Assembly (NCBI GenBank): GCA_029068555.1 | Contig: JAIECJ010000197.1 | Location: 1-36,554, forward strand | DNA from: Lachnospiraceae bacterium | Lineage (GTDB): Bacteria > Bacillota > Clostridia > Lachnospirales > Lachnospiraceae | DNA length: 36,554 nucleotides | Direction of reading: 5' to 3' | In this document: positions 15,795 through 35,522 of the stretch, in pieces | How positions within the stretch are numbered: position 1 is the stretch's first letter | How the letters are laid out: each line of letters opens with the position of its first letter | Translations under genes and position numbers: made by a program | The notes under the pieces: generated by a model | What the model saw: only the letters and a program-made list of their open reading frames with translations | What the model was told of the DNA's origin: nothing | Database searches by the model: none

Positions 15795-15840
15795 AGTTAT
15801 AGCAAAATTGTGATTACACTAGCCGAGGAAGGTGGACAGC

Positions 15841-18689: not shown

Positions 18690-19880
18690 ATGAATAAACA
18701 ACCAGTGTTTACGGTTATTATACCAACATATAACAGAGAGCATTTTTTGAAAAGAACTATTGACAGTATATTATCACAAACTTTTAAAGATTTTGAGTTA
18801 ATTATTGTGGATGATGGTTCTACAGACAATACGAATGCTTTAATAGACACATATGAAGACAATAGAATTGTATATGTTAAAAAAGAGAATGGTGGACAAA
18901 ATTCGGCAATAAATGCAGGGTTACAAAGAGCAAAAGGCCAATATATTGCTTTTTGCGATTCCGATGACACATGGATGCCGGAAAAGCTGGAGAAGCACCT
19001 GCAAAAATATCAGGAGGATTCTGAAATAAAGGTGGTCTACAACTTGACAGGTGTTATAAAAGAAGAAGGTGGGGAGCAAAAAATAATACTTGCCAGAGAT
19101 GATGTTTATGAAGGCTGGTGTTATAGAGAAATTTTAGACCAGGGATATTTAACCTCCCCTTCGTTTTTGTCTTGCAAAAGTGAATGTTTTGATAAAATTT
19201 GCTATTTGCCAACTGATGTTTTCATATGTCAGGATGATGATTTGTGTTTTAAATTATGCAAATATTATAAGGTGGGATTAGTCAAAGAGATATTGGGAGT
19301 ATATCATGTTGATGCCCCTGATAAATTATGCGCGAAGAAAAAGCAGTATGCATATGATTTTATTAAGTTTTGGGATATATGGAGTGATGAGGCAATAATG
19401 GTATGCGGTATAGAATCACTTAAGGATAAGTATGTTAAAGCATCCTATTATTGCTTAGAAGCTGATGAAATAAATATGGCAAAAAAAGTATATCAGCGCG
19501 CATGCAAAATGGTAGATGACTCAATAGAAGAAGTAAAGAATAGAATAAAACGTGAACTGCAAGGAGATGAAGAAATAATTATTTATGGAATAGGAGACTG
19601 GGGAAAAAGAATTTACAAAATGTTAGCAATGATAGGATTCCAGAGGCTTACATTTGCAGTAACATATTCAGCACAGGACTTGGACAATCTGTACGGGATA
19701 CCGATCAGAGAAATAGGGACATTAATATCAAATGTTGACACCCCTTTGATTATCGCTTCATCAGATTATTATCATGAAATGAAATCAATAGCGCACGAAA
19801 AAGGTTTTAATAAGATAGTTTCTTATTTGCAGGTTAAACGTATGATATTCGATAGGGAGGACAGTAATGGGATATTATGA
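18690..19880 (+). CDS. GT2 glycosyltransferase with C-terminal Rossmann-like module
   Basis: Residues 1-230 are a GT-A family 2 glycosyltransferase: FTVIIPTYNREHFLKRTI, VDDGSTDNT at 40-48 and the metal-binding DSDD at 90-93. Residues about 293-385 form a separate alpha/beta module beginning EEIIIYGIGDWGKRIYKML and ending near DTPLIIASSDYYHEM, the recurrent module of this cluster. It should act at the cytoplasmic side of the membrane and add one sugar to the growing glycan; donor and acceptor are unknown. There is no membrane segment. Its end overlaps the next gene by 14 bases, so they are co-translated. Confidence 0.85.
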   Translation: MNKQPVFTVIIPTYNREHFLKRTIDSILSQTFKDFELIIVDDGSTDNTNALIDTYEDNRIVYVKKENGGQNSAINAGLQRAKGQYIAFCDSDDTWMPEKLEKHLQKYQEDSEIKVVYNLTGVIKEEGGEQKIILARDDVYEGWCYREILDQGYLTSPSFLSCKSECFDKICYLPTDVFICQDDDLCFKLCKYYKVGLVKEILGVYHVDAPDKLCAKKKQYAYDFIKFWDIWSDEAIMVCGIESLKDKYVKASYYCLEADEINMAKKVYQRACKMVDDSIEEVKNRIKRELQGDEEIIIYGIGDWGKRIYKMLAMIGFQRLTFAVTYSAQDLDNLYGIPIREIGTLISNVDTPLIIASSDYYHEMKSIAHEKGFNKIVSYLQVKRMIFDREDSNGIL

Positions 19881-20940
19881 TGTGATGAAAAGTGAGATGC
19901 AAAGAATATATAATGCATTGATTGATGAAGAATCAAAAGATTGGTTTAACGCAAGAGTCGAATATATGATAACAAGAAATTCTGATGCATTTCTAAATTC
20001 TGTGTTCTCATTATTCAGAAAATATCAAAAAAAGTGTCATCATGTAGGTATGGAAAGGTTTGTTAAAGATAAAGATTACAGAGGAGTAATTATTTATGGT
20101 TGTGGACACGATGGAAAACTGACTAAAGAAATATTGAATTTATGTGGATATTTGGTTTCGTTCTGGTGTGACAGCAATCAACAAATTGTTGGAAATAAAG
20201 TGAACGGGTTAAGAGTGATTTCTACAGAGGAATTAGTAGAAAAATATGCAGATTATTTGGTGGTTATCGGTTCGTTTAAGTATATGAATCATATAAAAGA
20301 GCGATTGCGGTCGTTTGGATTTCCATTAGATCGGGTAGCAATATTCAGTGATAATGCATATGACTGGGCAGTTACGGGAACTCAGTATTTTGATATGTTT
20401 GAGCCAGGTAATAAAGAGATTTTTATTGATGGAGGGGCATACAACGGAGATACAATTTATGATTTTATGGCATGGAATAAGGAGAATGCGTATAAAGTTT
20501 ATTCCTTTGAACCAATGAAAGGCATGTATGAACTTATTTTAAAGAGATTGGAAAAAGATAATATAACAAGTGTAAATGTTTTAAATTCTGCTGTGTGGGA
20601 CAGAAAAGAAGAATTGTTTTTTGCAGATATGGTAGATGGTTCAAGAGTTGCGTGTGGTGGGAGTATAAAGGTAAATGGGGAACGTATAGATGATATTGTG
20701 GGTACGGATGAAGTTACATTTATTAAGCTGGATGTGGAAGGTGCAGAGTTAGAAGCATTAAAAGGTGCAAGTGAGACCATTCAAATGTGTCATCCAAAAC
20801 TTGCTATATGTATATATCATAAACCAACAGACATTTTGGATATAGGAAAATATATATTGGAATTAAGCCCTGATTATAAGTTGGCAATAAGGCATTATAC
20901 ATTATCAGATTGTGAGACAGTTTTATATGCAATTCCCTAA
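19867..20940 (+). CDS. FkbM-family methyltransferase with N-terminal Rossmann-like module
   Basis: The 357-residue protein has a helical N-terminus, then the recurrent module (about residues 71-165, starting GVIIYGCGHDGKLTKEIL), then an FkbM methyltransferase domain from about residue 180: IFIDGGAYNGDT (SAM binding), YSFEPMKG, and FIKLDVEGAELEALKGA. FkbM enzymes methylate hydroxyls, often on sugars. The predicted role is O-methylation of a glycan unit. GGGAGG lies upstream of the ATG and inside the end of the preceding gene, which it overlaps by 14 bases. Confidence 0.87.
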   Translation: MGYYDVMKSEMQRIYNALIDEESKDWFNARVEYMITRNSDAFLNSVFSLFRKYQKKCHHVGMERFVKDKDYRGVIIYGCGHDGKLTKEILNLCGYLVSFWCDSNQQIVGNKVNGLRVISTEELVEKYADYLVVIGSFKYMNHIKERLRSFGFPLDRVAIFSDNAYDWAVTGTQYFDMFEPGNKEIFIDGGAYNGDTIYDFMAWNKENAYKVYSFEPMKGMYELILKRLEKDNITSVNVLNSAVWDRKEELFFADMVDGSRVACGGSIKVNGERIDDIVGTDEVTFIKLDVEGAELEALKGASETIQMCHPKLAICIYHKPTDILDIGKYILELSPDYKLAIRHYTLSDCETVLYAIP

Positions 20941-21002
20941 TAACATTATGATATTACTACAAAGCATAAATTCTTCAAAAAATTCTGGTAGGGGGTAGGA
21001 AT

Positions 21003-22127
21003 ATGGATTTTATACCAGTAAACAAGCCTTTGCTTAATGGCAATGAAAGAAAGTACTTATGCGAGTGTATTGATACAGGCTGGATTTCATCGGAAGGTCC
21101 GTTTGTAAAGGAATTTGAACAGAAGATGAGTGCATCCGTATGCAGAAAGTATGGTGTTTCAGTATCAAATGGTACAGCTGCATTGGAAGTGGCAGTTCAG
21201 GCTTTGGGTATTCGAGAAGGCGATGAAGTGATTATGCCAGCCTTTACCATTATTTCATGTTCTATGGCGGTTGCAAAGGTGGGGGCGGTTCCAGTATTGG
21301 TGGACAGTAATATACATACATGGAATATGAATGTAGAGGAAATTGAGGCAAAAATAACACCGAAAACAAGGGCTATTATGGTTGTTCATTTATATGGACT
21401 TCCTGTTGAAATGGACAATGTCCTTAGCCTTGCAAAAAAATATAATTTGAAGGTTATTGAGGATGCAGCAGAGATGCATGGTCAGACATATAATGGAAAA
21501 CCATGCGGCAGTTTTGGTGATATCAGTACATTTAGTTTTTATCCAAACAAACACATAACAACTGGTGAGGGTGGAATGGTTGTGACGGATGACGAGGAGT
21601 TGGCAGAGCGCTGCAGGCTGCTCCGTAATCTGTGTTTCAAAAAGGATGTCAGGTATGTACATGATGAAATTAGTGGTAACTACCGTTTTACCAATCTGCA
21701 GGCAGCAGTCGGTTTGGCACAGCTGGAAAGATTGGACGAGTTTGTAAAACGCAAGAGGGAGATGGGAAGGTATTATACAGAAGCCTTGGAAGATGTGAAA
21801 GGTATTCAGCTTCCGATTCCTAAAACGGAGTATGCAGACAATATTTACTGGGTATATGGTATCGTACTGAATAAAGACATTAAGCCGGATAATAAAACGA
21901 TACAGAAACTTTTAGCAGCAGAAGGTATCGGTGCAAGAACCTTTTTCTGGTGTATACATGAACAGCCTGTGTATCAGGGACAGGGGATGTTTCAAAACGA
22001 AAGATATCCGAATGCGGAATATCTGGCTAGAAAAGGTTTCTATATACCCAGTGGATTGGCCTTAACACAGGAACAGATGGAATGTGTTGTATGTAAGGTT
22101 AAGAAAGTAATGACACAGTTAGGGTGA
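21003..22127 (+). CDS. DegT/DnrJ/EryC1 PLP-dependent sugar aminotransferase (perosamine-synthase-like)
   Basis: The 374-residue protein is complete. PLP ligands are visible: K183 in SFYPNKHITTGEGG forms the Schiff base, D154 in VIEDAAEMHG contacts the pyridine nitrogen, and SNGTAALEVA near residue 55 binds the phosphate. The closing YIPSGLALTQEQ and the lysine segment resemble GDP-perosamine synthases, which transfer an amino group to C4 of a nucleotide-linked 4-keto-6-deoxyhexose; the exact sugar is inferred. The following methyltransferase suggests that the amino group may then be methylated. No matching 4,6-dehydratase is in the window. AGGGGGTAGG precedes the ATG. Confidence 0.9.
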   Translation: MDFIPVNKPLLNGNERKYLCECIDTGWISSEGPFVKEFEQKMSASVCRKYGVSVSNGTAALEVAVQALGIREGDEVIMPAFTIISCSMAVAKVGAVPVLVDSNIHTWNMNVEEIEAKITPKTRAIMVVHLYGLPVEMDNVLSLAKKYNLKVIEDAAEMHGQTYNGKPCGSFGDISTFSFYPNKHITTGEGGMVVTDDEELAERCRLLRNLCFKKDVRYVHDEISGNYRFTNLQAAVGLAQLERLDEFVKRKREMGRYYTEALEDVKGIQLPIPKTEYADNIYWVYGIVLNKDIKPDNKTIQKLLAAEGIGARTFFWCIHEQPVYQGQGMFQNERYPNAEYLARKGFYIPSGLALTQEQMECVVCKVKKVMTQLG

Positions 22128-22142
22128 TAAGAGGGATACAGT

Positions 22143-22898
22143 ATGGAAGTGTTTCAGGATTATGCATATTATTACAATGCATTTTACCATGATAAGGATT
22201 ACAGAACAGAAGCAGAACGGGTTGACCTGTTGCTGAAAAGGTATGGGAAGGATGTAAAACGCGTTATTAACTTTGGATGCGGCACTGGAAAGCATGACAA
22301 GGAATTGGTCAATATGGGATATAAGTGCATGGGTATAGATATGAGTCAGATGATGATAGATATTGCAAAGGGGAACGTACCATGCAAGGAAAGTATTGAC
22401 TTTTCTGTTGCTGATATACGACAGTATAAAACTTCTGTAAAATATGACGCAGTGATTTCACTGTTTCATGTTATGAGTTACCAGAATACGTATGAAGATA
22501 TTTTATCAGCATTCCAGTCAGCGAGGACTGCATTAAATGTTGGAGGACTGCTTTTGTTTGATGTGTGGTATGGACCGGGCGTGTTGAGTGACAAACCGGT
22601 GTTGCGGGTAAAAGAAGTGCAGAACGATAAATACCGACTGATACGAATAGCAAGACCTGTCATGCATGACAAAACAAATATTGTTGATGTCTGTTATGAG
22701 ATTTTTGTCATTGACAACCGGACAGGAGAAACGAAGACAATTAACGAAGTACACAGCATGCGGTATTTTTTCAGGCCAGAGCTTGAAAGCTATCTGAAAA
22801 ATGCTGGCTTTGAACTGATTGACAATCTGGACTGTGAGACACTAGAGGCAACAGACTTTGCTTCATGGACAAGTTATTTTGTGGCGAGGGCTGTCTGA
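22143..22898 (+). CDS. Class I SAM methyltransferase (amino-sugar N-methyltransferase-like)
   Basis: This 251-residue Rossmann methyltransferase has motif I VINFGCGTGKHD (41-52), GIDMSQMMIDIAKG (motif II) and DAVISLFHVMSYQNTYED (motif IV). The overall layout, including the N-terminal YAYYYNAFYHDKDY, resembles TylM1/DesVI-type N,N-dimethyltransferases that act on nucleotide-linked amino sugars. It starts 15 bases after the DegT aminotransferase, which fits an aminotransferase to N-methyltransferase sequence. Methylation of an oxygen cannot be excluded. AGAGGG precedes the ATG. Confidence 0.83.
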   Translation: MEVFQDYAYYYNAFYHDKDYRTEAERVDLLLKRYGKDVKRVINFGCGTGKHDKELVNMGYKCMGIDMSQMMIDIAKGNVPCKESIDFSVADIRQYKTSVKYDAVISLFHVMSYQNTYEDILSAFQSARTALNVGGLLLFDVWYGPGVLSDKPVLRVKEVQNDKYRLIRIARPVMHDKTNIVDVCYEIFVIDNRTGETKTINEVHSMRYFFRPELESYLKNAGFELIDNLDCETLEATDFASWTSYFVARAV

Positions 22899-23196
22899 AA
22901 AATAAAGACTAAACGTACATTGACAATTTTATACTTATGTCAGGGAGATTATTGTTAAAGTCTGAGAAATGTAATATTCCATCTTATAGCATTTGCAGTG
23001 GGATTGTAGAAAGGAAAAGTGGTATGTTAGTTATAGAGACTGATATACCTTTATTTTGTAAAGGAACTATATTAGCGTTTATTGGCGATAGAAGCATGTA
23101 AAGCAAAAATAAAGATTGTGCTAAATAGAATTTCCTGATATGAGTATGAAAGCAAAATACTTATATTGGGATTTTTTATTGAAAAAGGGAGAGTTT
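22899..23196 (+). other. AT-rich spacer of about 300 bases without a clear gene
   Basis: Only a weak 54-codon frame (22937-23101) is open here. It has no ribosome site and no recognisable product, so I do not call it a gene. No good promoter, hairpin or repeat was found. It may be a scar from gene exchange within the cassette. Confidence 0.4.
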
Positions 23197-23631
23197 ATGG
23201 GACAGGTAGAGGAAGTAAGAAAAAAGAACAAGCTTCTTGCAATGATTATTCGTAATAATTATGATTGCAGCGGTGTGGACTTTATTACGCCAAATGAGTA
23301 TTCGCAGCAGGTAGCTTATATGCATCATCCTGCAGGAAAGGTGATAGATGCCCATGTGCATAATATGGTTCATAGGAATGTTGTGCTGACGCAGGAAGTT
23401 TTGTTTATTAAAAAGGGTATCTTGCGTGTGGACTTTTATGATGAATATGAGGACTATTTGGAAAGCAGGAATTTGTTTCCAGGAGATATTATCCTTCTGG
23501 TTTCTGGCGGGCATGGCTTTCATGTGCTGGAAGAGGTTGAGATGGTGGAGGTGAAACAAGGACCTTATGCGGGGGAAGATGATAAAAAAAGGTTTTTGGG
23601 AGTTGAAGACGAAAAGGTAAACTATGTGTAA
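23197..23631 (+). CDS. Cupin-like small protein of glycan clusters
   Basis: This 144-residue protein has a single cupin barrel. The first cupin motif is visible as HHPAGKVIDAHVHN, and the second as FPGDIILLVSGGHGFHVLEE, with histidines placed as metal ligands. The start at 23197 follows GGGAGA; the frame is open further upstream without a site. Related proteins are often found in surface-polysaccharide loci and are usually annotated only as cupin domain proteins. It may act on a nucleotide sugar (isomerase or epimerase chemistry) or bind a ligand. It is not an obvious FdtA or RmlC homologue. Confidence 0.68.
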   Translation: MGQVEEVRKKNKLLAMIIRNNYDCSGVDFITPNEYSQQVAYMHHPAGKVIDAHVHNMVHRNVVLTQEVLFIKKGILRVDFYDEYEDYLESRNLFPGDIILLVSGGHGFHVLEEVEMVEVKQGPYAGEDDKKRFLGVEDEKVNYV

Positions 23632-23749
23632 AGGATTGGAATATTAGGACTATTTAAATTACAAGATAGCAGGAAAGGATAATAGTCTGGGCATTCTGGA
23701 ATACTTTGGTGTATAAGATGTTTAGCATATTATAGAGGGAAAGCAGCAT

Positions 23750-24898
23750 ATGGGTAAAAAAATGCTTGTTATACTGGACACAAAACCAGAGTGGGGGGGG
23801 GAACATCAATATGCATCTGTGATGATGAACTGCATTTTGGAAATTACAGATACGAAAGATTTGCTTGCAATATGTAGCAGCAGATATTGGAGAAAGTGGT
23901 GTAGGGAGAATGGAATACGAATACTGGATATTCAGTGGTATTCATTTTCTATACAGGAACAGGAGTATCATATTAAATATTCTCTATTTTCAAGAATATA
24001 CTGTATGTATTTGAGTAAGCTTGGAAAGATAATTCGCAAGGAAAAAGTGAAAGCAGTCTTGTGCACAAGGCAAGGGATATTTATTCCTAATTTAAGCATT
24101 AAGGTATTGGCACCAGTTCATGACTTGATGCACAGGTATGAGGGACATTTTCCGGAGGTAACGGGTGAGTATGGAACGAGGGAACTCATTTTTGCATCTA
24201 AGGCAAGATATGCATGGTGTGTGTTGACAGATTCCAAGGTTGGGAAACATCAATTCATAGAATCCTATTTGCCATATATGAGAAGAAGGCTACCGCATAT
24301 AATCAGTCTGCCGTTTGTAGTTCCAAGTCACATTGCGAAGTGTGATGAAGAAGAAATAGAAGTTCCGCTGAAATATGTATTTTACCCAGCCCAGTTTTGG
24401 CAGCATAAAAATCACCTGAACCTGTTAAAGGCAGTCAGAATTCTTGCAGAAGATATTTGTGATATTCATCTGGTTTTGGTCGGATCAGAAAAGAACAATT
24501 TGAAAATGGTTCGGCAATATATCTCTGAAAATCATTTGGATGACAATGTGACAATAAAAGGGTTTGTTAGTAATGGGAATATAACATATCTTTATAAACA
24601 TGCTGTAGGATTAATTATGCCATCCTACTTTGGCCCGACAAACATACCGCCGCTTGAAGCGATGGCATTAGGCTGTCCTGTGGCTGTATCGAATAAATAT
24701 GCAATGCCTGAACAGGTTAGAGACGCAGGACTTTTATTCAATCCTGATTCGCCTGAAGAGATAGCAGAATGTATAAGGAAGATGTGGTGTGACGATAATC
24801 TAAGACAGCAAATGCGGCAAAAAGGATATAAAAGAGCAGGAAGATGGAGTGAAAAAAATTTTTCCGCTAAATTAAATAAAATTATAAATAAAATATGA
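23750..24898 (+). CDS. GT4-family glycosyltransferase
   Basis: This 382-residue GT-B enzyme has MLVILDTKPEWGGEHQYA as its N-terminal Rossmann strand, FYPAQFWQHKNHLNLLKAV (donor-side start, typical of family 4) and the donor-binding FGPTNIPPLEAMALGCPV at about 293-310, the E-x7-E-like region of GT4. It should transfer a nucleotide-activated sugar in the cytoplasm; the donor is unknown. A GAGGGAAAG site precedes the ATG. Unlike several neighbours, it has no extra Rossmann-like module. Confidence 0.87.
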   Translation: MGKKMLVILDTKPEWGGEHQYASVMMNCILEITDTKDLLAICSSRYWRKWCRENGIRILDIQWYSFSIQEQEYHIKYSLFSRIYCMYLSKLGKIIRKEKVKAVLCTRQGIFIPNLSIKVLAPVHDLMHRYEGHFPEVTGEYGTRELIFASKARYAWCVLTDSKVGKHQFIESYLPYMRRRLPHIISLPFVVPSHIAKCDEEEIEVPLKYVFYPAQFWQHKNHLNLLKAVRILAEDICDIHLVLVGSEKNNLKMVRQYISENHLDDNVTIKGFVSNGNITYLYKHAVGLIMPSYFGPTNIPPLEAMALGCPVAVSNKYAMPEQVRDAGLLFNPDSPEEIAECIRKMWCDDNLRQQMRQKGYKRAGRWSEKNFSAKLNKIINKI

Positions 24899-25006
24899 AA
24901 AAGTGTTAGCTCTAATAATAGCTAGAGAGTTATTATTTGGCAGATGAACAAAATTTGATCAATCTCAAAGGCAGGTTGAAGAATGTGTAAAAAATAAGGG
25001 AGTATT

Positions 25007-25078
25007 ATGTTTGTGAACTTGAGTAACGGTAAGGTTAGGAACGAATTAGGCAATGTTTTGAAAGAGGAACTGTTATGA
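25007..25078 (+). CDS. Possible 23-residue leader peptide
   Basis: A short frame starts at ATG 25007 behind AAGGGAG and ends in TGA 25076-25078, overlapping the ATG of the fucosyltransferase-like gene as ATGA. The close ribosome site and overlap suggest translational coupling, but the frame is too short to be sure. It resembles no known peptide that I know of. Confidence 0.3.
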   Translation: MFVNLSNGKVRNELGNVLKEELL

Positions 25079-26061
25079 ATAAAATGAAACATTGTTTTAT
25101 ATCGAAAGACAACGCGGAGCGTAATCTATTTCGGATGCGGATAAGGCACTGTGGTCCGCTAAACAGTAATAAAATAATATATTATATAGCAGAGAATAAT
25201 AAAAATCTTGGTTTCTTTGCAATGTATAGGTATTGGCTTGAATATCTGTATTTTGCTGATGTGTGTGGCTATATACCTGTGATAAATGTAGGATCTGAAT
25301 TTTCTTATGCAGATATGGAAAAAGTTAATGAAACAAGGAATCCATTTGAGTATTACTTTAATCAGCCTGCGTTAATAGGGGTAAAGAGTGCAAAAATGAG
25401 CCGTAATGTGATTAATGCTGATATTGTCCATCGACAGATGGTTGAGCTGATTTTTACTGGTAAATATTGCAATTATAAGGCAAACAAAAGATATATGAAT
25501 GCAATGGGGTATATTGTAAAAAAATATATGCGGTTTAATCAGTCTACATGGGAATATATTTCTATGGGAATGAATCAGCTAAATATTGATAAAGGTAAAA
25601 TCTTGGGAGTTCATATAAGAGGAACCGATTTTCGTGCCAGCTACAATAATCATCCGGTGTACATAACAGAGGAGGAATGCTTTAAGGAAATAGATGTATT
25701 GTTATATAAAAAGCCATATACCCGAATATTTGTTGCAACGGATGATAGCAGAATTTTAAAGCGTTTTGTGGAGAAGTATGAAAGACGGATTTGCTATTAT
25801 GATGACATAATACGAAGCGACAAAAACCAATCGGTTGCATTTAGTAAAAACAGCAGAAAGAATCATAAATATTTGCTGGGTTTAGAGGTAATAAGGGATA
25901 TGTATACATTGTCTGTGTGTTCAGGTTTGGTAGCAGGAGTGTCACAGGTAGCTATATGTGCGCATATCAATAAACTGGCAAGGGGAGAACATTATGAAGA
26001 TATAAAGATTATAGATAAAGGTTTGAACGACAACAGTCATATTTTCATGAGACATTCGTGA
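25075..26061 (+). CDS. GT23 / O-fucosyltransferase-like protein
   Basis: The 328-residue protein has GVHIRGTDFR (H180-D185), the HxRxTD-type motif of the fucosyltransferase superfamily that includes NodZ, FUT8 and POFUT, followed by IFVATDDSRIL, which matches the second donor motif of that group. The arginine of the motif contacts the GDP-fucose phosphates in known structures. There is no membrane span or signal peptide. It is therefore a candidate alpha-fucosyltransferase or related GDP-deoxysugar transferase. AGAGGAA lies eight bases upstream. Its last bases overlap a GTG alternative start of the next gene. Confidence 0.72.
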   Translation: MNKMKHCFISKDNAERNLFRMRIRHCGPLNSNKIIYYIAENNKNLGFFAMYRYWLEYLYFADVCGYIPVINVGSEFSYADMEKVNETRNPFEYYFNQPALIGVKSAKMSRNVINADIVHRQMVELIFTGKYCNYKANKRYMNAMGYIVKKYMRFNQSTWEYISMGMNQLNIDKGKILGVHIRGTDFRASYNNHPVYITEEECFKEIDVLLYKKPYTRIFVATDDSRILKRFVEKYERRICYYDDIIRSDKNQSVAFSKNSRKNHKYLLGLEVIRDMYTLSVCSGLVAGVSQVAICAHINKLARGEHYEDIKIIDKGLNDNSHIFMRHS

Positions 26062-26069
26062 GGGGAAAA

Positions 26070-27119
26070 ATGAGAAAATTACTAGTCTGGGGAATAGGGA
26101 ACTATGCCAGAAGATTTATAGAGAATCAGTGCAATGAAGAAATCATTGGCTTTATTGAAACAAATAAATCAACAGATACATATATGGGTAAACCGGTATA
26201 TGACAGCAGGGAAATACCGGATGGAATTGATTATATAATCATAGCAAATTCATATGCGACTGAAATATATAATTGGTGTCTGCGGCTGAAAATTGATACG
26301 ACGAAACTGATTTTTCTGTACGGAGTAAAACAACAGATGGGATGCACAGATTCACACATAATAAAGTCGGTACTGTCTAATGCAAACTATACTATATACT
26401 GTGCAGAATTTGGGATAATAGACCAGACATTTGTAAAATCAGATGCAGAAGAATATCAAATGCTCAATAGACGTTCAAATTTTGCAATACAAGAACAGTA
26501 TATGTGGCCGATTATAGTAGACAAATATGCTCCGGCAGGGAGAATCCAAAATTATTTCTGGCAGGATTTATGGGCTGCAAGGTTAGTCATAAAATCAGGA
26601 ATAAAGAATCACTTTGATATTGGTTCAAGACTGGATGGATTTATTGCACATCTTTTAGCTGCACAAATAGATGTAACAATGATAGATATCCGTAAATTTC
26701 CGGGAGAAGTGGAGCATCTACATGCAATAGTTGATGATGCGACAACACTTCATCAGATACCGGATGAGAGTATAGGAAGTATGTCGGCACTCTGTTCTTT
26801 GGAACATTTCGGGCTTGGAAGGTACGGGGATCCCATTGATCCGGAAGCCTGTTTTAAATGTTTTGAAAATATTCAAAAAAAGTTAAAAAAAGGTGGGAGG
26901 CTATATCTTTCTTTGCCGATTGGCAAAGAAAGAGTAGAGTTTAATGCACACAGAGTTTTTTATGCCAGAACAGTGGCAGAATGTTTTCATACATTACATT
27001 TGGCAGAATTTTCTTGTACCGCGGAGGGGAAGATTGAATATAATGTGGACATACATAAATATGATAATGATTCACATAATGGCGAGTGGCGGTACGGATT
27101 ATTTTCTTTTATAAAGTAA
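26070..27119 (+). CDS. DUF268 protein with N-terminal Rossmann-like module
   Basis: Residues 1-95 are the recurrent module (RKLLVWGIGNYARRFIENQC, then YIIIANSYATEIYNWCL). From about residue 105 the protein matches DUF268 (PF03269), a methyltransferase-like fold: HFDIGSRLDGFIAHLLAA, DVTMIDIRKFPGE, CSLEHFGLGRYGDPIDPEA and GGRLYLSLPIGKERVEFNAHRVFY. Function is unknown in the family, although it is common in glycan loci. The ATG at 26070 has AGGGG close upstream; a GTG at 26058 overlapping the preceding stop is an alternative start. Confidence 0.82.
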   Translation: MRKLLVWGIGNYARRFIENQCNEEIIGFIETNKSTDTYMGKPVYDSREIPDGIDYIIIANSYATEIYNWCLRLKIDTTKLIFLYGVKQQMGCTDSHIIKSVLSNANYTIYCAEFGIIDQTFVKSDAEEYQMLNRRSNFAIQEQYMWPIIVDKYAPAGRIQNYFWQDLWAARLVIKSGIKNHFDIGSRLDGFIAHLLAAQIDVTMIDIRKFPGEVEHLHAIVDDATTLHQIPDESIGSMSALCSLEHFGLGRYGDPIDPEACFKCFENIQKKLKKGGRLYLSLPIGKERVEFNAHRVFYARTVAECFHTLHLAEFSCTAEGKIEYNVDIHKYDNDSHNGEWRYGLFSFIK

Positions 27120-27183
27120 ATAGGCATGAATGCCAGTGACAGAAGTGTATATCCGTTTTTTGCATAAGGAGGCTTTAAATAAG

Positions 27184-27660
27184 ATGAATAAACAGGCAAT
27201 TTCGATTTTATCAGCGTTAGCAGGAGCACTAGCAGGGGTAGGAATAGTGGGAAAAGTATCAGTGGGCAGGAGTCAAAGAATTCAGTCCATGTCTGACAAG
27301 CATTTGGCATTATTTCTTATGATGAACCAGTGGGTAAAAGTAAAACAGGACGGAAAGAATCTTTCTACATATTTTGAAAAGAATGGGTATAAAAAAGTTG
27401 CGATATATGGAATGAGTTATGTGGGCGGAACACTGGCTGATGAACTCAAAAACACGAATGTAGTTGTAGCATATGGGATTGATAAAAAAGCTGACTCTGT
27501 TTATTCCGATGTGGACATTGTATCTATGGAAGATGAATTAGAAGCAGTGGATGCTGTTGTAGTTACAGCAATAACCTTTTTTGATGAGATAGAGGAGCAG
27601 CTTTCCAGAAAAATAAAATGTCCGATTATTTCACTGGAAGATATACTATACGAAATATAA
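27184..27660 (+). CDS. Membrane-anchored stand-alone Rossmann-like module protein
   Basis: The 158-residue protein starts with a hydrophobic, glycine-rich segment (about residues 5-24, LSALAGALAGVGIVG) that looks like a membrane anchor. From residue about 70 it is the recurrent module alone: KKVAIYGMSYVGGTLADEL through VDAVVVTAITFFDEI. No catalytic domain is attached. AAGGAGG lies 11 bases before the ATG at 27184; the frame is open back to 27130 without such a site. It could tether or organise the module-bearing enzymes at the membrane, but this is only inference. Confidence 0.68.
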   Translation: MNKQAISILSALAGALAGVGIVGKVSVGRSQRIQSMSDKHLALFLMMNQWVKVKQDGKNLSTYFEKNGYKKVAIYGMSYVGGTLADELKNTNVVVAYGIDKKADSVYSDVDIVSMEDELEAVDAVVVTAITFFDEIEEQLSRKIKCPIISLEDILYEI

Positions 27661-27703
27661 ATATTGAAAGTGGCGATGTTAAAGGAAAGGTACTAGGAGT
27701 TGT

Positions 27704-28585
27704 ATGAACATTGTAAGAATATCAGATGGATTAGGAAACCAGATGTTTCAGTATGCGTTTGCAAGAAAAATCAGCGTGACAACTGGACATAAAGTGTATC
27801 TTGACACACGGTTTATTAACAATGAAGACTTGATCGGGAAAGAGAAGAACTCCTATTTCAAAAAGAAATTGGCATATCGTGAGTATGGGCTATTACATTT
27901 TAATATTAAGCTTCCGGTAGCGGATGGCAGGGTGCTTATTCCATGGAAATATATAGAGCAGTCAGGGTATCTACAACAGGCTGTTTATGGTCTGGCAAAC
28001 CAGGGCTTTTGGTTATGGAAGTATAAGAGAGAGAATTTTAATTTTGAAAGGGAACTTTCATGGGTGGACAGAATGCTGCCGACATACTATCAAGGATATT
28101 TTTTTGATTTAAAATATTATGATGACATTAAGTTAGTTTTGCAGCACGAATTCTCACTGAAAGATAAAGTAAAACTTCCGCGGGAGTTACGGGATATTTT
28201 AAGCAAAAAAAATACAGTTTCGCTACATATACGAAGAGGGGACTTCTTAAAGCTTAACCGTGATATAAGTGAATCGGCATATTATAGAAAGGCAGTTCAG
28301 ATAATTCAAAAAAAGATAGTGAATCCGATATTTTTAATATTTTCGGATGATATCAGCTGGGTTAAAGAAAATATGAAAATACATGACGAAAAAATATATC
28401 TCAGCGGAATGGGATTTAATGATTATGAGGAGTTTGCCATTATGAAACATTGTAGCCACAATATTATAGCCAATAGTACATTTAGTTATTGGGCTGCATA
28501 CTTAAATTCAAAGAAAGATAAAATAGTCATTTGTCCAAAACATTGGCGAAACAGTATTATCCCTAAAGAATGGATTCAATGTTAG
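27704..28585 (+). CDS. GT11 alpha-1,2-fucosyltransferase
   Basis: The 293-residue protein opens with MNIVRISDGLGNQMFQYAFAR, the GT11 signature (GLGNQMFQ at 9-16). HIRRGD at 175-180 is the GDP-fucose-binding HxRRxD motif. FLIFSDDISWVKENM and EFAIMKHCSHNIIANSTFSYWAAYL complete the family pattern. It is expected to add fucose in alpha-1,2 linkage in the cytoplasm. GDP-fucose synthesis genes are not in the window. AGGAG lies before the ATG. No Rossmann-like extra module is attached. Confidence 0.93.
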   Translation: MNIVRISDGLGNQMFQYAFARKISVTTGHKVYLDTRFINNEDLIGKEKNSYFKKKLAYREYGLLHFNIKLPVADGRVLIPWKYIEQSGYLQQAVYGLANQGFWLWKYKRENFNFERELSWVDRMLPTYYQGYFFDLKYYDDIKLVLQHEFSLKDKVKLPRELRDILSKKNTVSLHIRRGDFLKLNRDISESAYYRKAVQIIQKKIVNPIFLIFSDDISWVKENMKIHDEKIYLSGMGFNDYEEFAIMKHCSHNIIANSTFSYWAAYLNSKKDKIVICPKHWRNSIIPKEWIQC

Positions 28586-28610
28586 TAAATATTATATGGA
28601 GAGCAAGTAT

Positions 28611-29870
28611 ATGCAAAATGAGTTGGTATCAGTAATCGTTCCATCATTCAATGCTGAATTATTTATTGGAGATTGTCTGGATAGTTTGATAAATCAGACT
28701 TACTCTGCCCTTGAAATAATATGTGTGGATGATGGTTCAGTTGATAGTACTTACCATATATTGCAAAAATACCAGTCAAAGGACAGAAGAATAAAATTAT
28801 TAAAACAGAATAATAAATTTGCAGGTGTTGCACGCAATTGTGGAATCAGGGAAGCAAAAGGGAAGTATCTGCTTTTTGTTGATGCAGATGATTTCTGCAG
28901 ACTGGACATGGTTGAAACACTGGTAAAAAAAGCAGAGTCAGATCAAACGGATATTTTGATATTTGATTTGATGCGATATGATAATAGGAGCAAAAAGGCT
29001 GTTGAAGATTCGTGGACAAGTGTGTACCCAGAGCATTTTGGAGAAGGTGTCAAAGGAGCGGTCGATATAAAAGATACTATTTTTCAAATTACGTCCTCTG
29101 GACCTATGAATAAACTTTTTTTGCGTGAGTTTATTATCACTAATGAAATTTGGTTTCAATCAATTCCAAGGACAAATGATTTGTTTTTTGTGTATACAGC
29201 TATGACATATGCGAAGCGCATTGCTATATTAAATCAGAAACTGCAATATTATAGGATAAATAATTCAAGCAGCCTTCAGGCTACAAATGACAAAACTCCA
29301 CTGTGCTTTTTGGAAGCGCTGCAGGGATTAAAAGACAATCTGGTAAATCGTGGTGTATACGAATGGTACAAAGCTAGCTATACTGAAATGGCAGTAGCTG
29401 TTTCCATGTTTAATCTTGCTGCTCAAAAAAGTGAGGATACATATATTCAGGTAATGGATGCAATTTGGCACAGAATTGAGAAGCCTGATATAGGTCTGTG
29501 CAGTGTGCAGGCTGGGAGACTTGAACTGCTAATTCAGCAGGGAGTAAGGGTTATTATTTATGGTGCAGGCAAACTTGCTGAGGTGTTTGTAAAATACCTA
29601 TTGTTTATTAAACATATAAATAAGGAAAGAATAAAAATTGTAGTCACACAAAGATCGCATATTCAAAATGTACTATGTGGAATTAGTGTAAAAGTGTTAA
29701 GCGAACTGACTGAGGAGGATGAAATGTCTGCTTATGTGGTAGCTGTAGATAATAAAGGAGTTCAATGCGAAATGATAAAAAATTTGCAGATAAAAGGGAT
29801 TGACACTATTACTGCAATAGATTTTAAGTGTATGTTGGCATTGCTCGGAATGAGGAAGACACCCTGCTAA
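28611..29870 (+). CDS. GT2 glycosyltransferase with C-terminal Rossmann-like module
   Basis: This 419-residue protein has a family 2 catalytic domain (LVSVIVPSFNAELFIGDCL, VDDGSVDST at 39-47, DADD at 91-94). Residues about 311-410 form the recurrent module (VRVIIYGAGKLAEVFVKYLL, then MSAYVVAVDNKGVQCEM). The chosen ATG at 28611 has GGAGAG seven bases upstream; an ATG at 28596 is in frame but without a site. A decayed copy of the same type of module begins just downstream at 29904. Confidence 0.85.
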   Translation: MQNELVSVIVPSFNAELFIGDCLDSLINQTYSALEIICVDDGSVDSTYHILQKYQSKDRRIKLLKQNNKFAGVARNCGIREAKGKYLLFVDADDFCRLDMVETLVKKAESDQTDILIFDLMRYDNRSKKAVEDSWTSVYPEHFGEGVKGAVDIKDTIFQITSSGPMNKLFLREFIITNEIWFQSIPRTNDLFFVYTAMTYAKRIAILNQKLQYYRINNSSSLQATNDKTPLCFLEALQGLKDNLVNRGVYEWYKASYTEMAVAVSMFNLAAQKSEDTYIQVMDAIWHRIEKPDIGLCSVQAGRLELLIQQGVRVIIYGAGKLAEVFVKYLLFIKHINKERIKIVVTQRSHIQNVLCGISVKVLSELTEEDEMSAYVVAVDNKGVQCEMIKNLQIKGIDTITAIDFKCMLALLGMRKTPC

Positions 29871-29903
29871 AAATATTTGGTTATAGTAAATGGGGAACTA
29901 AGG

Positions 29904-30044
29904 ATGGACAAAGTTATAATTTATGGGATTGGAAATGATGGTAAATGCATTCTGGAAATTGTGCATGATATTCAGGGGAACAGGGATAAAATGGTTTTAG
30001 AGCATTTTCAAACACGCTTTAGTATTCCATCAGACAAAATATAG
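29904..30044 (+). pseudogene. Truncated Rossmann-module gene interrupted by a family B element end
   Basis: A 46-codon frame starts with VIIYGIGNDGKCILEIVHD, clearly the first strand, glycine loop and helix of the module found elsewhere in this cluster, with the residue pattern of the N-terminal type. The similarity stops at about residue 30, exactly where the sequence becomes a family B element end (29998-30021), and a stop codon follows. The rest of the gene, perhaps a methyltransferase or glycosyltransferase, appears lost. Confidence 0.7.
29998..30021 (+). mobile_element. Fragment of a family B element end
   Basis: The bases read TAGAGC followed by ATTTTCAAACACGCTTTA, close to the right end of the family B element at 4113-4278. 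TAGAGC may be the start of the left end with the interior deleted. It lies inside the decayed module gene. Confidence 0.6.
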
Positions 30045-30079
30045 AGTTGTGGACTGTATGGTCCGTGCCAGTACCAGGC

Positions 30080-30120
30080 AAAATTTCGACGGCGATGCGG
30101 TGGCATCGTCTGGAAATTTT
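30080..30120 (+). other. Imperfect hairpin between decayed gene and methyltransferase
   Basis: AAAATTTC (30080-30087) pairs with GAAATTTT (30113-30120), and CGATGC (30093-30098) with GCATCG (30103-30108). The remaining bases pair poorly. It may be a terminator or interior of a lost repeat. No open frame is convincing between 30045 and 30242. Confidence 0.4.
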
Positions 30121-30242
30121 ACGACGCAATGATGCGAAACAGGAAGTTCACGATTCTAATATCTGACCGGATGGAGTAATATAGAAAAGTGATAAATGGG
30201 ATTGATACCAGAGGACATTGTAAGGATATTGGAGAAAGATAT

Positions 30243-31115
30243 ATGATGAAAAGAATAATTGTATGGGGAACGGGAATGTACTTTGAAGAACTATGCGAAA
30301 GAGGGTGCATAGAAGGATTTGAAATTCTGGCATTTTGCGATAATGATTCAAAAAAGCATGGACAGCTATTTCACGAAAAGGAAATCATTGCGCCAGATGA
30401 GATTAAAGAGAGATATTTTGATGCGATATACATAGCCAGTTTGACATATTATGAAGAAATAAAAATGCAGATTTTAAGGGAAAAGCTTGCCCCAGAGAGT
30501 AAAATCAAGTCATTTATTCCCATAAAAGATAAATATGAGGGGGAACTGGCATTCTGGTCTGCTGTCTTTAAAAAGGAAGGGAATCATTTTAGCAATACAT
30601 TATACAAAAAACGTATGCTCGAAGTAGCAGGGGAGGAAGACGATTCCTTTTGGACAGATAAAGTCGTTGTTGATTTTGGCTGTGGTCCAAGGGGAAGTCT
30701 TGCATGGACAAAAACTCCGGCGGTAAAAATTGGTGTAGATGTATTGGCTGCGAGATACTTGGAGAAGTTTGGAGATGAATTAGTCCGGCAGGATATGGTG
30801 TATGTAACGTGTAGTGAGGACAGGATTCCTATTCCTGATAATTATGCAGACTGGCTGATCACGATTAATTCTTTGGATCACGTTGACAATCTTGATAAGA
30901 TGGCGAGTGAACTGATTAGAATATTGAAACCAGGTGGAAGTATTTTGGGAAGCTTTAATTTGAATGAGCCTGTTACAGAATGTGAGCCCCAGACATTGAC
31001 AGAAGAAATTTTAGAAGAAAAATTGTTGTCTCATTTTGATATTGTAAGCCGGCGGATTGTCAAGATGGAAGACATTAGAAAAGAAATGCTTTATGTCAGG
31101 GCAGTGAAAGGATGA
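30243..31115 (+). CDS. SAM methyltransferase with N-terminal Rossmann-like module
   Basis: The 290-residue protein begins with the recurrent module (MKRIIVWGTGMYFEELC to AIYIASLTYYEEIKMQIL, residues 2-95). A class I methyltransferase domain follows: VVVDFGCGPRGS at about 140-151, GVDVLAARYLEKFG, DWLITINSLDHVDN and LKPGGSILGSFNL. It is the third domain context, after FkbM and DUF268, in which the module precedes a methyltransferase-like fold. The ATG at 30243 has GGAG eight bases upstream. The end overlaps the next GT2 gene by four bases (ATGA). Confidence 0.83.
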   Translation: MMKRIIVWGTGMYFEELCERGCIEGFEILAFCDNDSKKHGQLFHEKEIIAPDEIKERYFDAIYIASLTYYEEIKMQILREKLAPESKIKSFIPIKDKYEGELAFWSAVFKKEGNHFSNTLYKKRMLEVAGEEDDSFWTDKVVVDFGCGPRGSLAWTKTPAVKIGVDVLAARYLEKFGDELVRQDMVYVTCSEDRIPIPDNYADWLITINSLDHVDNLDKMASELIRILKPGGSILGSFNLNEPVTECEPQTLTEEILEEKLLSHFDIVSRRIVKMEDIRKEMLYVRAVKG

Positions 31116-32329
31116 AGTTCATTGAGCGGAAGAAATTGCCGCAAATTAGTGTGATTGTTCCTGTCTATAATATTGAAAAGTATCTTTGCCAATGTATAGA
31201 CAGTATTCAAAAACAGACTTATTCAAATCTTGAAATTATTTTGGTCGATGATGGTTCTGTTGACCAGAGTGGTATGATATGTGATAAATATGCTTTGGCG
31301 GACAGTAGAATTCGTGTGATTCACAAACAGAATAGAGGGCTGGTAAGTGCGCGTAAGGCAGGAGTAAATATTGCCGTTGGAGAATATATAGCTTTTGTGG
31401 ATGGTGATGACTGGATTGAATTGGACACTTACCAGAGCTTGATTGAAAATGGCAGAGAGGCAGATATTATTGCCTTTGCTTGTTATGAGGAGTACGGGGA
31501 TTATCAAAGTGTTAGAAAAAATAATGTAAAAGAAGGTTTATATGTTTCGGAAAGCGAGAGAGGCTTAATCTATGAAACAATGCTCATGGATACTCACTTT
31601 TATGAATTTGGACTTATGGCCTCTTTGTGGAGCAAACTGATCCGCAAAGATATTATTGTGAAAAATCAAAATAAAGTTAGCGATCAGATCAGTTATGGCG
31701 AAGATGTAGCATGTACATTTCCGTGTCTATTGGATGCAACAACGATATGCGTGACGAATATGCCGCTTTACCATTATCGGCAGAGACAGGGGTCTATTGT
31801 AAAAAGCAGCGCAAAAGTGCCGCGGAGTAATTTCATCAATATATACAGTCTGTTACTAGGGAAATTTGAATCTGTTCCATTGTATAATGATGTGCTGAAG
31901 ATGCAGCTTTATTTCTATATGTGGTTTATCCTGCTGGCAAAATCATATGGTGATTTGGGAACAGGGATGGCACTCATACCCTTTTTAAAGGTCCGTTCTG
32001 GGATGAAGATAATCATATATGGTGCAGGGACATTTGGCAGAGCGGTAAGGGAATACTGTGATAAGTCACAGAGCATCAAAGTAGTGGGCTGGGCAGACCT
32101 TCATTACATGACATACCGTGGTCATGGACTGGATGTTACAAGTATTGATGAGCTGCAAAATTTAGAATTTGATGTGGTGATAATCGCGGTATTAAATGAA
32201 AAGACTGCGGAGAAGATAAAGGAGGATTTCGTAAAAAAAGGAATTTCGGAGGAACGAATAGACTGGGCAAAGAAGAGTGTACTAGGCATGATACAGCTAC
32301 CCGACTGGGTTACAAGGCGGAGGGATTGA
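31112..32329 (+). CDS. GT2 glycosyltransferase with C-terminal Rossmann-like module
   Basis: The 405-residue protein has ISVIVPVYNIEKYLCQCIDS, VDDGSVDQS at 45-53 and DGDD at 97-100 of the family 2 fold, with a helical middle part. Residues about 298-395 are the recurrent module (MKIIIYGAGTFGRAVREYC through DVVIIAVLNEKTAEKI). It shows the same order, GT2 then module, as the genes at 18690 and 28611. It is translationally coupled to the preceding methyltransferase (ATGA overlap). Confidence 0.86.
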   Translation: MKFIERKKLPQISVIVPVYNIEKYLCQCIDSIQKQTYSNLEIILVDDGSVDQSGMICDKYALADSRIRVIHKQNRGLVSARKAGVNIAVGEYIAFVDGDDWIELDTYQSLIENGREADIIAFACYEEYGDYQSVRKNNVKEGLYVSESERGLIYETMLMDTHFYEFGLMASLWSKLIRKDIIVKNQNKVSDQISYGEDVACTFPCLLDATTICVTNMPLYHYRQRQGSIVKSSAKVPRSNFINIYSLLLGKFESVPLYNDVLKMQLYFYMWFILLAKSYGDLGTGMALIPFLKVRSGMKIIIYGAGTFGRAVREYCDKSQSIKVVGWADLHYMTYRGHGLDVTSIDELQNLEFDVVIIAVLNEKTAEKIKEDFVKKGISEERIDWAKKSVLGMIQLPDWVTRRRD

Positions 32330-32333
32330 ATTG

Positions 32334-33722
32334 ATGAGCACGCGCATACTTTTTGGTGCAGGCGTATATGCGAAAAAATATAAGGCACTGCTTGAGTATC
32401 TGGATATGGATTTTGATTATTTTACAGACAACGATGCCTCGAAATGGGGGACGTTTCTTTATGGGAAGAAAGTCATTGCGCCAAATGTACTAAAAACATT
32501 TCCCCAATGCAGCATCATTATTTCGAGTACCCATGAGAAAGCTATCAGAGACCAACTTGCGGGGATGGGTATGGATGGCGGCATCGTGGATCTGGGTGTA
32601 CTGTATGGCTTATGTGAAAAGCGGATGTCTGGAAGTGTCTGTAGTCATTCTGCCGCTGATAGTGGAAAAACAATCCTGGTTGACATGTATGAGGGCATTG
32701 GATGGGGCGGGACGGAGCTCTGGGCGGCAAATCTGGCAGAGGGACTTAGGGATGCGGGGTATAATGCCGCCTTGTTGGGCTGTACAGGGCAGCCTGCACT
32801 AGAGGAACAGTATGAGGCTATGGTGAGACGCATACCGGAAGAAAATACAATCATGCAGATGGTCAGGTACATGGAGGGCAGGATGCCATTTATCTTTATT
32901 AACAATTTTGCAGGCTGTGCATTTATGGCGGCATCCATTGTAAAGCGCAAATATCCTGGCCTTGTAAAGATCGTGTCAGTAATCCACAGTGACAGCAGGA
33001 GCCTCTTTGATGCATATATGATGTTGGGAAAGTATATGGATAAAATATTTTGTGTGAGCAGCCAGATACGGGACCACATGCAGGAGCTGTACGGTTTTGA
33101 CCATGGTTCGTATTATACAAGGGAGCAGCCGGTAGGGATGGACATGTCATGGAGACGAAAGATAAATGCATCCGGTGCACTGCGGATTGGATATGCGGCA
33201 AGGCTTGTGAAACAGGCGAAGCGTGCAGACCTACTTATGGATTTGATCGGCCTTTTGGAGAAAAAGGGTATGGACTATATTTTCCAGATTGCAGGCGAAG
33301 GGGAATGTTCCGGGCTGATTGGACAGTTCATATCCAGAAAAAGGCTGCAGGATAAGGTACAGCTGATGGGCAGACTGCCCAAAAGCCAGATGGACGTTTT
33401 CTGGAAAGGTCAGGATGTCTTTGTCAATGTTTCGGAGTATGAGGGGACGAGCCTTTCCATGCTGGAAGCAATGGGATATGGATGCGTGCCTGTGGTTACG
33501 GATGTAAGTGGTGCAAGAGAATTTATCAGCCAGGAAAAAAATGGCTGTATTTGTGATGTCGGTAACATGGAAAGGATTGCAGACTGTATTGCAATGCTGG
33601 CGGACAACAGGGAGCTGCTAAAAATATATGGTGATAAATGCCGCAGGATAGTACAGGAGCGGTGTAATCCCAAAGAATATATTAAATATTGGATAGAGGA
33701 AGTGTTGGGGGACTGGATATGA
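32334..33722 (+). CDS. GT4 glycosyltransferase with N-terminal Rossmann-like module
   Basis: Residues 1-95 are the recurrent module (TRILFGAGVYAKKYKALLEYL through CSIIISSTHEKAIRDQL). Residues about 110-462 are a family 4 GT-B enzyme with a glycine-rich N-terminal strand (IGWGGTELWAANLA), RIGYAARLVKQAKRADLL, and the donor-site VNVSEYEGTSLSMLEAMG. The ATG at 32334 has GGAGGG nine bases upstream; a TTG at 32331 is less likely. The gene is at the right border of the AT-rich cassette and its own DNA is already less AT-rich than the genes to its left. Its stop overlaps the start of the epimerase gene. Confidence 0.86.
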   Translation: MSTRILFGAGVYAKKYKALLEYLDMDFDYFTDNDASKWGTFLYGKKVIAPNVLKTFPQCSIIISSTHEKAIRDQLAGMGMDGGIVDLGVLYGLCEKRMSGSVCSHSAADSGKTILVDMYEGIGWGGTELWAANLAEGLRDAGYNAALLGCTGQPALEEQYEAMVRRIPEENTIMQMVRYMEGRMPFIFINNFAGCAFMAASIVKRKYPGLVKIVSVIHSDSRSLFDAYMMLGKYMDKIFCVSSQIRDHMQELYGFDHGSYYTREQPVGMDMSWRRKINASGALRIGYAARLVKQAKRADLLMDLIGLLEKKGMDYIFQIAGEGECSGLIGQFISRKRLQDKVQLMGRLPKSQMDVFWKGQDVFVNVSEYEGTSLSMLEAMGYGCVPVVTDVSGAREFISQEKNGCICDVGNMERIADCIAMLADNRELLKIYGDKCRRIVQERCNPKEYIKYWIEEVLGDWI

Positions 33723-35487: not shown

Positions 35488-35522
35488 GAGTGCCAGATAA
35501 TACAGGAGAGGAGCGGGTGGGT

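Follow-up and report, generated by a model that had tools for sequence, protein, structure and literature searches.

The window considered here is the whole of contig C109 (36,554 bases; GenBank JAIECJ010000197.1) from the draft genome of a Lachnospiraceae bacterium (GCA_029068555.1; 4.1 Mb in 242 contigs). Between positions 18,690 and 33,722 it holds a glycan cluster in which one protein module of ~85 residues recurs on transferases, methyltransferases and other proteins, and also on a membrane-anchored protein that has no enzyme domain. The features of the cluster and its flank, in order along the forward strand, are:

19569..19814, + strand: module, C-terminal on a glycosyltransferase family 2 (GT2) protein (residues 294-375; gene 18690-19880); acid at the end of strand 2 changed to V
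20080..20325, + strand: module on the N-terminal side of an FkbM methyltransferase (residues 72-153, after 71 residues; gene 19867-20940)
23750..24898, + strand: GT4 transferase of the same cluster, without module (Pfam, profile search)
26070..26300, + strand: module, N-terminal on a DUF268 protein (open reading frame (ORF) 26058-27119; profile, Pfam)
27184..27660, + strand: stand-alone membrane-anchored module protein (model with mean predicted local distance difference test (pLDDT) 84)
27196..27258, + strand: anchor of the stand-alone protein, hydrophobic and Gly/Ala-rich (bounds by eye)
27292..27387, + strand: pre-module helix of the stand-alone protein, which recurs before C-terminal modules of some transferases
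27388..27627, + strand: module of the stand-alone protein (profile, model)
27704..28585, + strand: GT11-type transferase without module, directly downstream of the stand-alone gene (Pfam, profile search)
29547..29807, + strand: module, C-terminal on a GT2 protein (ORF 28596-29870, alternative start 28611); weakest intact copy, acid changed to V
29904..29996, + strand: module remnant in a decayed gene (12.8 bits)
30246..30485, + strand: module, N-terminal on an S-adenosylmethionine (SAM) methyltransferase (ORF 30189-31115, alternative start 30243; profile, Pfam)
32003..32260, + strand: module, C-terminal on a GT2 protein (gene 31112-32329; PglD_N 27.4 bits, cut-off 23.4)
32346..32579, + strand: module, N-terminal on a GT4 protein (gene 32331-33722, alternative start 32334; profile, Pfam)
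33689..36257, + strand: precursor genes without modules, a short-chain dehydrogenase/reductase (SDR) and two IspD-like genes (Pfam; the second IspD-like gene by shared group)

A first-pass annotation had counted nine copies of the module. An independent profile, built from 614 modules that all come from other genomes, confirmed the eight intact ones at 22.7-77.3 bits. The ninth, at 29904, is a decayed remnant, broken by a stop and frame changes and far weaker than the intact copies, with its 12.8 bits spread across 19 residues and an E of 0.0115 in a search of its own genome. For comparison, none of 3,400 shuffled sequences (100 rounds of the 33 window ORFs plus the 29904 remnant) exceeded 7.6 bits, the next-best window ORF (6083) reached 8.5 bits, and the window ORFs searched contained no tenth module. 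Pfam found all the partner domains named earlier (GT2, GT4, FkbM, DUF268 and methyltransferase); the description of the 19867 copy as N-terminal is right as to the side of the protein, but the copy is not at the very start. Drift of the profile to other Rossmann proteins is not a likely source of the matches, as reversed and shuffled controls gave E>=0.25 throughout and the precursor groups described below, which include several Rossmann enzymes, gave 0 matches in 119. Nor does recent duplication of one module inside the cluster explain the copies, which are only 15-29% identical to the 31112 module and follow enzyme class.

Within this genome the module is confined to a few places. There are 32 matches at E<=1e-3, of which 12 lie on contig C213, 11 on C185, 8 on C109 and one on C97. 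GT2 proteins provide the clearest contrast: of 54 matches, nine lie on C109, C185 and C213 and 45 on other contigs, and the module is in the same frame in 8/8 intact GT2 on these three contigs (the ninth is a fragment with a stop) versus 0/45 elsewhere (Fisher 8.6e-9). Thus the module is restricted to such clusters in its own genome and is not spread evenly over its transferases. Similarly, among 20 GT4 matches the module is on three of five at C109 and C213 and on none of 14 elsewhere (Fisher 0.01). On C97, a GT4 transferase and its module stand in neighbouring open frames of ~230 residues. This locus (G000:C97:22579-23870, region L069) duplicates, in broken form, the window gene for a GT4 with the module at its N-terminus. 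Its module closely resembles the one at 32334, and an ORF that by eye looks like an integrase lies nearby.

For a wider view, loci were selected via the stand-alone protein: the best 80 of 143 relatives, from 84,980 species genomes scanned, were taken with 10 kb either side of the stand-alone gene. These loci are mutually related, so that counts are not independent and P values, even one of 5e-42, are a guide only. Their 1413 ORFs comprise 645 in assigned groups, 95 stand-alone proteins and 673 others (206 of these with module); altogether the module is on 622 ORFs, 95 of which are the full-length stand-alone proteins. Groups were labelled by us as precursor or glycan-acting from Pfam names, using one representative per group. 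On this division, the module occurs on 321 of 526 glycan-acting ORFs in 20 groups; 17 of these groups, from about fourteen families, include a carrier. None of the 119 ORFs in nine precursor groups has it (P 5e-42): SDR, DegT, IspD, ribulose-phosphate epimerase, CTP transferase, UDP-GlcNAc epimerase, UDP-sugar dehydrogenase, alcohol dehydrogenase and asparagine-synthase-like proteins. Unclear groups that stayed unassigned include cluster 15 (module on 13/13), cluster 31 (methyltransferase-like, 0/8), cluster 22 (cupin-like, 0/9) and cluster 19 (no Pfam name, 0/11). In a further set, regions L065-L104, the module is on 307 of 734 ORFs, a figure that is no estimate of density since the regions were picked for their richness in hits.

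Among the glycan-acting groups, the module is on every member of FkbM (45/45), long FkbM (14/14), GT-D (14/14), RgpF-C (13/13) and TOD1-like proteins (6/6), and on most members of DUF268 (21/22), GT32/Caps_synth (16/17), DUF4422 (24/28), RgpF-N (7/9) and WcbI (9/11). Two methyltransferase-11 groups carry it on 10/12 and 2/6, radical SAM proteins on 7/12 and FUT8-like proteins on 2/6, and the large transferase groups stand at 89/130 (GT2), 41/126 (GT4) and 1/24 (GT11). Some proteins of 746-787 residues have the module placed in the middle; one of 746 residues (L066:3833-6073) combines a weak methyltransferase match, the mid-placed module and a C-terminal cytidylyltransferase-like domain.

The loci are also poor in membrane machinery. 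With spans counted by a simple hydropathy rule and six or more segments taken as multi-span, such proteins make up 3 of the 1413 ORFs of the 80 loci, whereas transferase regions of the own genome that lack the module have 16 in 104 ORFs. In the window one of 35 ORFs is multi-span (10515, outside the cluster), and its detection indicates that the count works; regions L065-L068 (C213 and C185) have one in 64, which is not among the module genes. Genes elsewhere could still supply a flippase, polymerase or permease.

The enzyme-free copy at 27184 belongs to a family of ~158-180 residues, in which an N-terminal hydrophobic segment (in most members) is followed by a long helix and the module; 27184 is the conserved start of the family. 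In the 80 loci, one hydrophobic segment is present in 80 of the 95 stand-alone proteins. The family is the most uniform large class of modules, with a mean identity between loci of 0.55 (96 rows) as compared with 0.21 for GT2 modules. Nine residues are invariant in 27 stand-alone sequences: six at the ligand edge (the ends of strands 1, 2 and 4 and the start of the first helix), D141, which opens strand 4, and two in the anchor and pre-module helix. Another module gene is present in 79 of the 80 loci; in the remaining one, L178, the sole module gene is the fusion in which the match lies. Within the genus, genomes rich in modules (ten or more) have a stand-alone-type match in 23 of 24 cases and those with fewer in 2 of 12; this count takes fused forms as stand-alone matches, and the module profile also registers the stand-alone copies. 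Collectively, these data support the earlier proposal of a homologous module shared by many unrelated enzymes and a membrane-anchored copy. Docking or substrate sharing, which that proposal attached to it, would be a possible role at most. A second small module protein, of 145-153 residues and with no evident anchor, was seen at L076:8070-8510, L100:14891-15337, L079:547-984 and L089:11988-12449.

Beyond the genus, stand-alone-type matches were found in 16 other genera of the family, in several of these only as fused forms, and in none of the genomes sampled from 24 other genera of the order. Of the relatives with a stand-alone protein, only two have titles outside Lachnospiraceae, other clostridia and unnamed bacteria: these are metagenome-bin contigs of 24.5 and 4.7 kb labelled Muribaculaceae and Bacteroides.

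The combination of helix and module exists both as a separate protein and as part of enzymes. The helix that precedes the module of the stand-alone protein also precedes the C-terminal module of 29 of 232 fusions tested, namely 15/23 GT4, 6/84 GT2, one long FkbM protein and 7/48 other fusions. The class nearest to the stand-alone module is that of C-terminal GT4 modules (mean identity 0.278), and 37 of 95 stand-alone genes have a GT4 as their upstream neighbour (neighbouring stand-alone genes skipped) versus 123 of 1109 background ORFs. Further, module-less GT4, GT2 and GT11 genes adjoin a stand-alone gene more often than module-bearing ones do (65/149 versus 28/131; P 8e-5). The own genome offers another instance, a second stand-alone gene (C213:35377) that follows a module-less GT4 match.

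The sequences of the modules follow their enzymes. In a FastTree phylogeny of 645 modules, enzyme-class labels change 68 times, as opposed to 299 when shuffled (434 labelled rows; 211 'other' rows left out), a result with a slight bias towards enzyme class since the groups were formed by whole-protein similarity with the module included. Pairs of different class are no more alike within a locus (mean identity 0.199) than between loci (0.195), and together with the count of locus label changes given below this argues against a locus-specific docking-domain system, with cognate similarity between the modules of one locus; any docking would not be specific to the locus. As judged from these comparisons, modules travel with their enzyme and there is no sign of locus-specific matching. 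Any target that they recognise should thus be common to all loci; candidates are the anchored protein, a small molecule, or other modules through a general contact. The same phylogeny is what one would expect if the module were a passive heirloom, an old structural part for folding or dimerisation that is clustered through the transfer of gene cassettes, and a between-class identity of merely ~20% is in keeping with such age. We regard this as unlikely: an inert part would hardly account for the spread over 17 enzyme groups at either end of the protein, for helix plus module occurring both in fusions and as a separate protein, or for the clear boundary between enzymes that act on the glycan and those that make precursors.

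By profile and by model, the module is a small Rossmann domain of the nucleotide-binding kind. A 41-row profile matched the solved structures of Rex (7e-10), 3nkl (1e-9) and 2g6t (1.4e-8) and, more weakly, WbaP (1.5e-3), a putative acetyltransferase (7l7z, 2.3e-3) and VioB (6e-3), and further Rossmann dehydrogenases ranked between these hits; with an eight-row profile, 2g6t and 3nkl rank first. The 31112 module modelled alone from the 41 rows (mean pLDDT 92, predicted template modelling score 0.84) gave no Foldseek hit better than E 1e-3. The top hit was 2g6t (E 1.4e-3, template modelling (TM) score 0.65), Rex and 3nkl were within the first 30, and 3nkl aligned to the module with a query-normalised TM score of 0.66. 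The comparison with solved folds thus gives one small Rossmann fold, closest to Rex, 3nkl and 2g6t, with PglD-type and WbaP domains scoring lower.

The kinship with the N-terminal domains of PglD and CapD that the first-pass annotation had proposed stands in part. PglD_N (PF17836, cut-off 23.4) is exceeded by one of the eight window proteins (31112); 19867, a partial match to the NeuD/PglB/VioB N-domain, reaches 21.0, and the other six are unlisted at E<=1. The profile matches to 3nkl, VioB and WbaP also favour the kinship. The part that did not hold is binding of coenzyme A, as the family model concerned (PF13727, CoA_binding_3) has no match at E<=1 in any of the eight window proteins. TIGR03570 matches two of six module proteins scanned, in the N-domain only and far under its whole-protein cut-off, and for the same six no NCBIfam model covers the module above its cut-off. 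Window scores for PF22674 (C2185-like_N) are likewise below the cut-off of 27 (30189, 20.7; 26070, 18.5; 31112, 13.9). No curated family therefore covers the module well.

Each of the known relatives differs from the module in its surroundings. The N-domain of PglD, NeuD and VioB (PF17836, TIGR03570) is the same small Rossmann domain by profile, and most modules keep its ribose-type Asp, but the left-handed beta-helix acyltransferase of these proteins is absent from the Pfam partners of the eight window proteins. The domain of CapD, PglF and WbaP is matched through 3nkl and the WbaP chains, yet in WbaP- and PglF-type proteins it follows a membrane-helix bundle, whereas 17 enzyme groups carry the module and a hydrophobic segment is absent from 469 of 527 fused proteins. 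The CapD type also differs in being recognised by PF13727 itself; in sampled module-free regions of the own genome, the lone ORF matched at E<=1e-4 was a CapD-like protein with PF13727. The domain that binds NAD(H) in Rex is the best match of the 41-row profile, but its winged helix for DNA binding has no counterpart among the Pfam matches of the window module proteins, and the glycine loop and acid are kept only in most module classes. Finally, the C2185-like proteins of clostridia (PF22674) are nearest by Foldseek and by the eight-row profile, though 2g6t itself is titled uncharacterized.

Conservation within the module points to the nucleotide edge. Over 645 modules, the glycine loop is kept at G8 (97%), G10 (76%) and G13 (58%) and the acid at the end of strand 2 (D32) in 78%, with I72 (71%) and L76 (76%) of the last helix also among the most conserved positions. 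All stand-alone modules (100%) have the acid, as do 95% of FkbM and 96% of N-terminal GT4 modules; among C-terminal GT2 modules the share is 66%, and among DUF4422 and RgpF modules (both RgpF groups) it is 0%. In PglD-type enzymes the residue right after it is a second Asp that makes the uracil contact, Asp41 of Pcryo_0637 and Asp36 of PglD according to PMC8040287. This residue is present in just two of 501 modules that keep the ribose Asp; a UDP ligand is therefore not predicted, and the signature of a UDP-sugar grip exactly as in PglD is ruled out.

A module with such an edge could be a nucleotide-sensing regulatory domain and nothing else, each copy binding a free nucleotide or dinucleotide and tuning its own enzyme in the manner of the WbaP DUF or following redox in the manner of Rex, with no platform involved. 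G8, G10 and D32 as leading conserved features, Rex and a CapD-type domain as nearest solved relatives by profile, and a module sequence that follows enzyme class all fit, and the WbaP DUF offers a precedent: according to PMC10942596, it dimerises, is stabilised by uridine nucleotides, responds to uridine monophosphate (UMP), and is thought to regulate the enzyme. Sensing on its own is nonetheless fairly unlikely, in that it leaves unexplained why GT2 outside the loci in the same genome lack the module, why precursor groups lack it throughout, and why an enzyme-free membrane-anchored copy is so strongly conserved. Distinctly unlikely is a common handle, by which modules would grip one feature of all intermediates such as a nucleotide- or carrier-linked chain end. 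A single target everywhere would account for the absence of a locus signal, for a module on glycan-acting and never on precursor groups in loci nearly without multi-span membrane proteins, and for the conserved ligand edge of the stand-alone family. However, the strand-2 acid is lost in whole classes, which makes one common ligand unlikely, an enzyme-free copy is not required, and no such carrier is seen here.

The reading we prefer, tentatively and at somewhat short of an even chance, is that the module is an assembly-enzyme tag, marking, in loci nearly devoid of multi-span membrane proteins, the enzymes at work on the nascent glycan. It builds on the homology of the modules, their confinement to these loci within the own genome, their presence on enzymes of the glycan but not of its precursors, the conserved anchored form that co-occurs with them, and the occurrence of helix plus module in fused and separate state. 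The placing of stand-alone genes beside module-less transferases and the invariant residues at the ligand edge of the stand-alone family also speak for it. Modules would associate with each other, as the distantly related WbaP DUF dimerises, and soluble enzymes would gather on the membrane-anchored copy. The retained nucleotide crevice might let most copies sense or hold a nucleotide, and a transferase without a module of its own may be supplied with one in trans by the neighbouring stand-alone protein. A loose analogy is found in the split transferase Alg13/Alg14, where a membrane-anchored Rossmann partner serves a separately encoded soluble transferase; Alg14 completes the active site, a role that is not suggested for the module. 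Experimental support that could be claimed for the mechanism comes solely by kinship, via the WbaP DUF and via EpsZ, whose corresponding domain takes part in a modelled dimer according to PMC12802240.

Various observations count against a tag. The strand-2 acid is gone from whole classes and from a third of GT2 copies, two of them in the window. Several glycan-acting groups lack the module or rarely have it: GT11 (1/24), CDP-glycerol transferases (0/9), 15832-like proteins (0/14), 22143-like methyltransferases (0/8) and even GT4, with merely 41/126. No hydrophobic segment above threshold is found in 15 of the 95 stand-alone proteins. Locus labels change 595 times on the module tree, compared with 589 when shuffled. 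The preference of module-less transferases for a stand-alone neighbour, taken by family, has a P of 0.019 for GT4 and 0.086 for GT2. Moreover, the fused GT4 have closer relatives than the GT4 that lie upstream of stand-alone genes, so that neither form is simply descended from the other.

Taken one step further, the tag would imply a separate mode of glycan assembly, in which mostly soluble enzymes of about fourteen unrelated families share a common tag and form a membrane-tethered line nucleated by the anchored tag, with no flippase- or polymerase-like proteins in the locus and with the crevice acting as a common switch or holding the nucleotide end of the chain. This extension is doubtful. 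To our knowledge, how bacteria hold the glycosyltransferases of one pathway together is largely open. No description of a shared module of this kind was found in the open-licence PMC literature; the domain fold is known, and as far as that search goes its spread as a common tag over about fourteen families, together with an anchored form, is new. In practical terms, sequence alone splits the glycan loci of one genome into those with the tag and almost no multi-span proteins and those with multi-span proteins and no tag. The tag further separates chain-acting from precursor enzymes, which would aid the annotation of unnamed enzymes in gut Lachnospiraceae.

The module itself is unevenly distributed. 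Matches at E<=0.01 occur in 51 of 60 relatives, with up to 54 per genome in the same genus. In 150 genera of the family, represented by one genome each, 59 have a match at E<=1e-5, and the highest count outside the own genome is at least 14. At the level of the phylum, 59 of 299 genomes match, a figure that overstates the spread because many of the hits, with a length of 211-231 residues, are probably Rex ORFs. Scoring in the phylum and 150-genus surveys covered the first 16 or 32 candidates of each genome, which makes their copy numbers lower bounds. Collectively, the genus, family and phylum counts make the large expansion of the module a feature of this genus and some relatives.

A flagellin glycosylation island was considered as a general setting but does not hold up as a rule. 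Module genes do lie within ~4-25 kb of flagellin genes in five genomes (G006, G011, G014, G017 and G012), but flagellin genes are present in none of the 80 stand-alone-centred loci (10 kb either side) and most genomes checked lack the linkage. Among the matches listed, a flagellin-family gene is within ~30 kb of a module on one contig in two (G012 and G017) of 13 genomes searched for both, which by rough estimate is near chance, and the flagellin and module genes listed for G010 and G023 are more than 100 kb apart. The own-genome flagellins, again among the matches listed, are on the module-free contigs C19, C64, C99 and C167, those of C19 beside GT2 proteins without module, one with tetratricopeptide repeat (TPR) matches. 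Flagellin-family genes are abundant in genomes of the genus (at least 11 in the own genome; regions L193, which is G000:C19, L196 and L198), where they stand beside module-less GT2, two with TPR matches. A C2185-like protein presumably lies near flagellin genes in Clostridium acetobutylicum.

Several other genes in or near the module loci were noted. Two adjacent IspD-like genes (34705-35487 and 35490-36257) follow the SDR gene; the same trio is found on C185 (L067:8793-11291) and an IspD-like pair at L197:70-1655, and the pairing suggests a cytidylyl-activated precursor. A haloacid dehalogenase (HAD) phosphatase at 15004-15576, which we take to resemble GmhB, and a sugar isomerase (SIS) protein and a cytidylyltransferase-like protein on C213 (1-15000, region L191) make a heptose route possible. 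The cluster starts with a 384-residue protein (17450-18604) that has no Pfam or NCBIfam match and by eye is possibly a beta-propeller, and L068:10902-12038 on C185 may encode a similar product. Large proteins with no Pfam match also stand beside module loci at 15832-17208 and L197:1839-4289, and L191:1826-4402 may be another.

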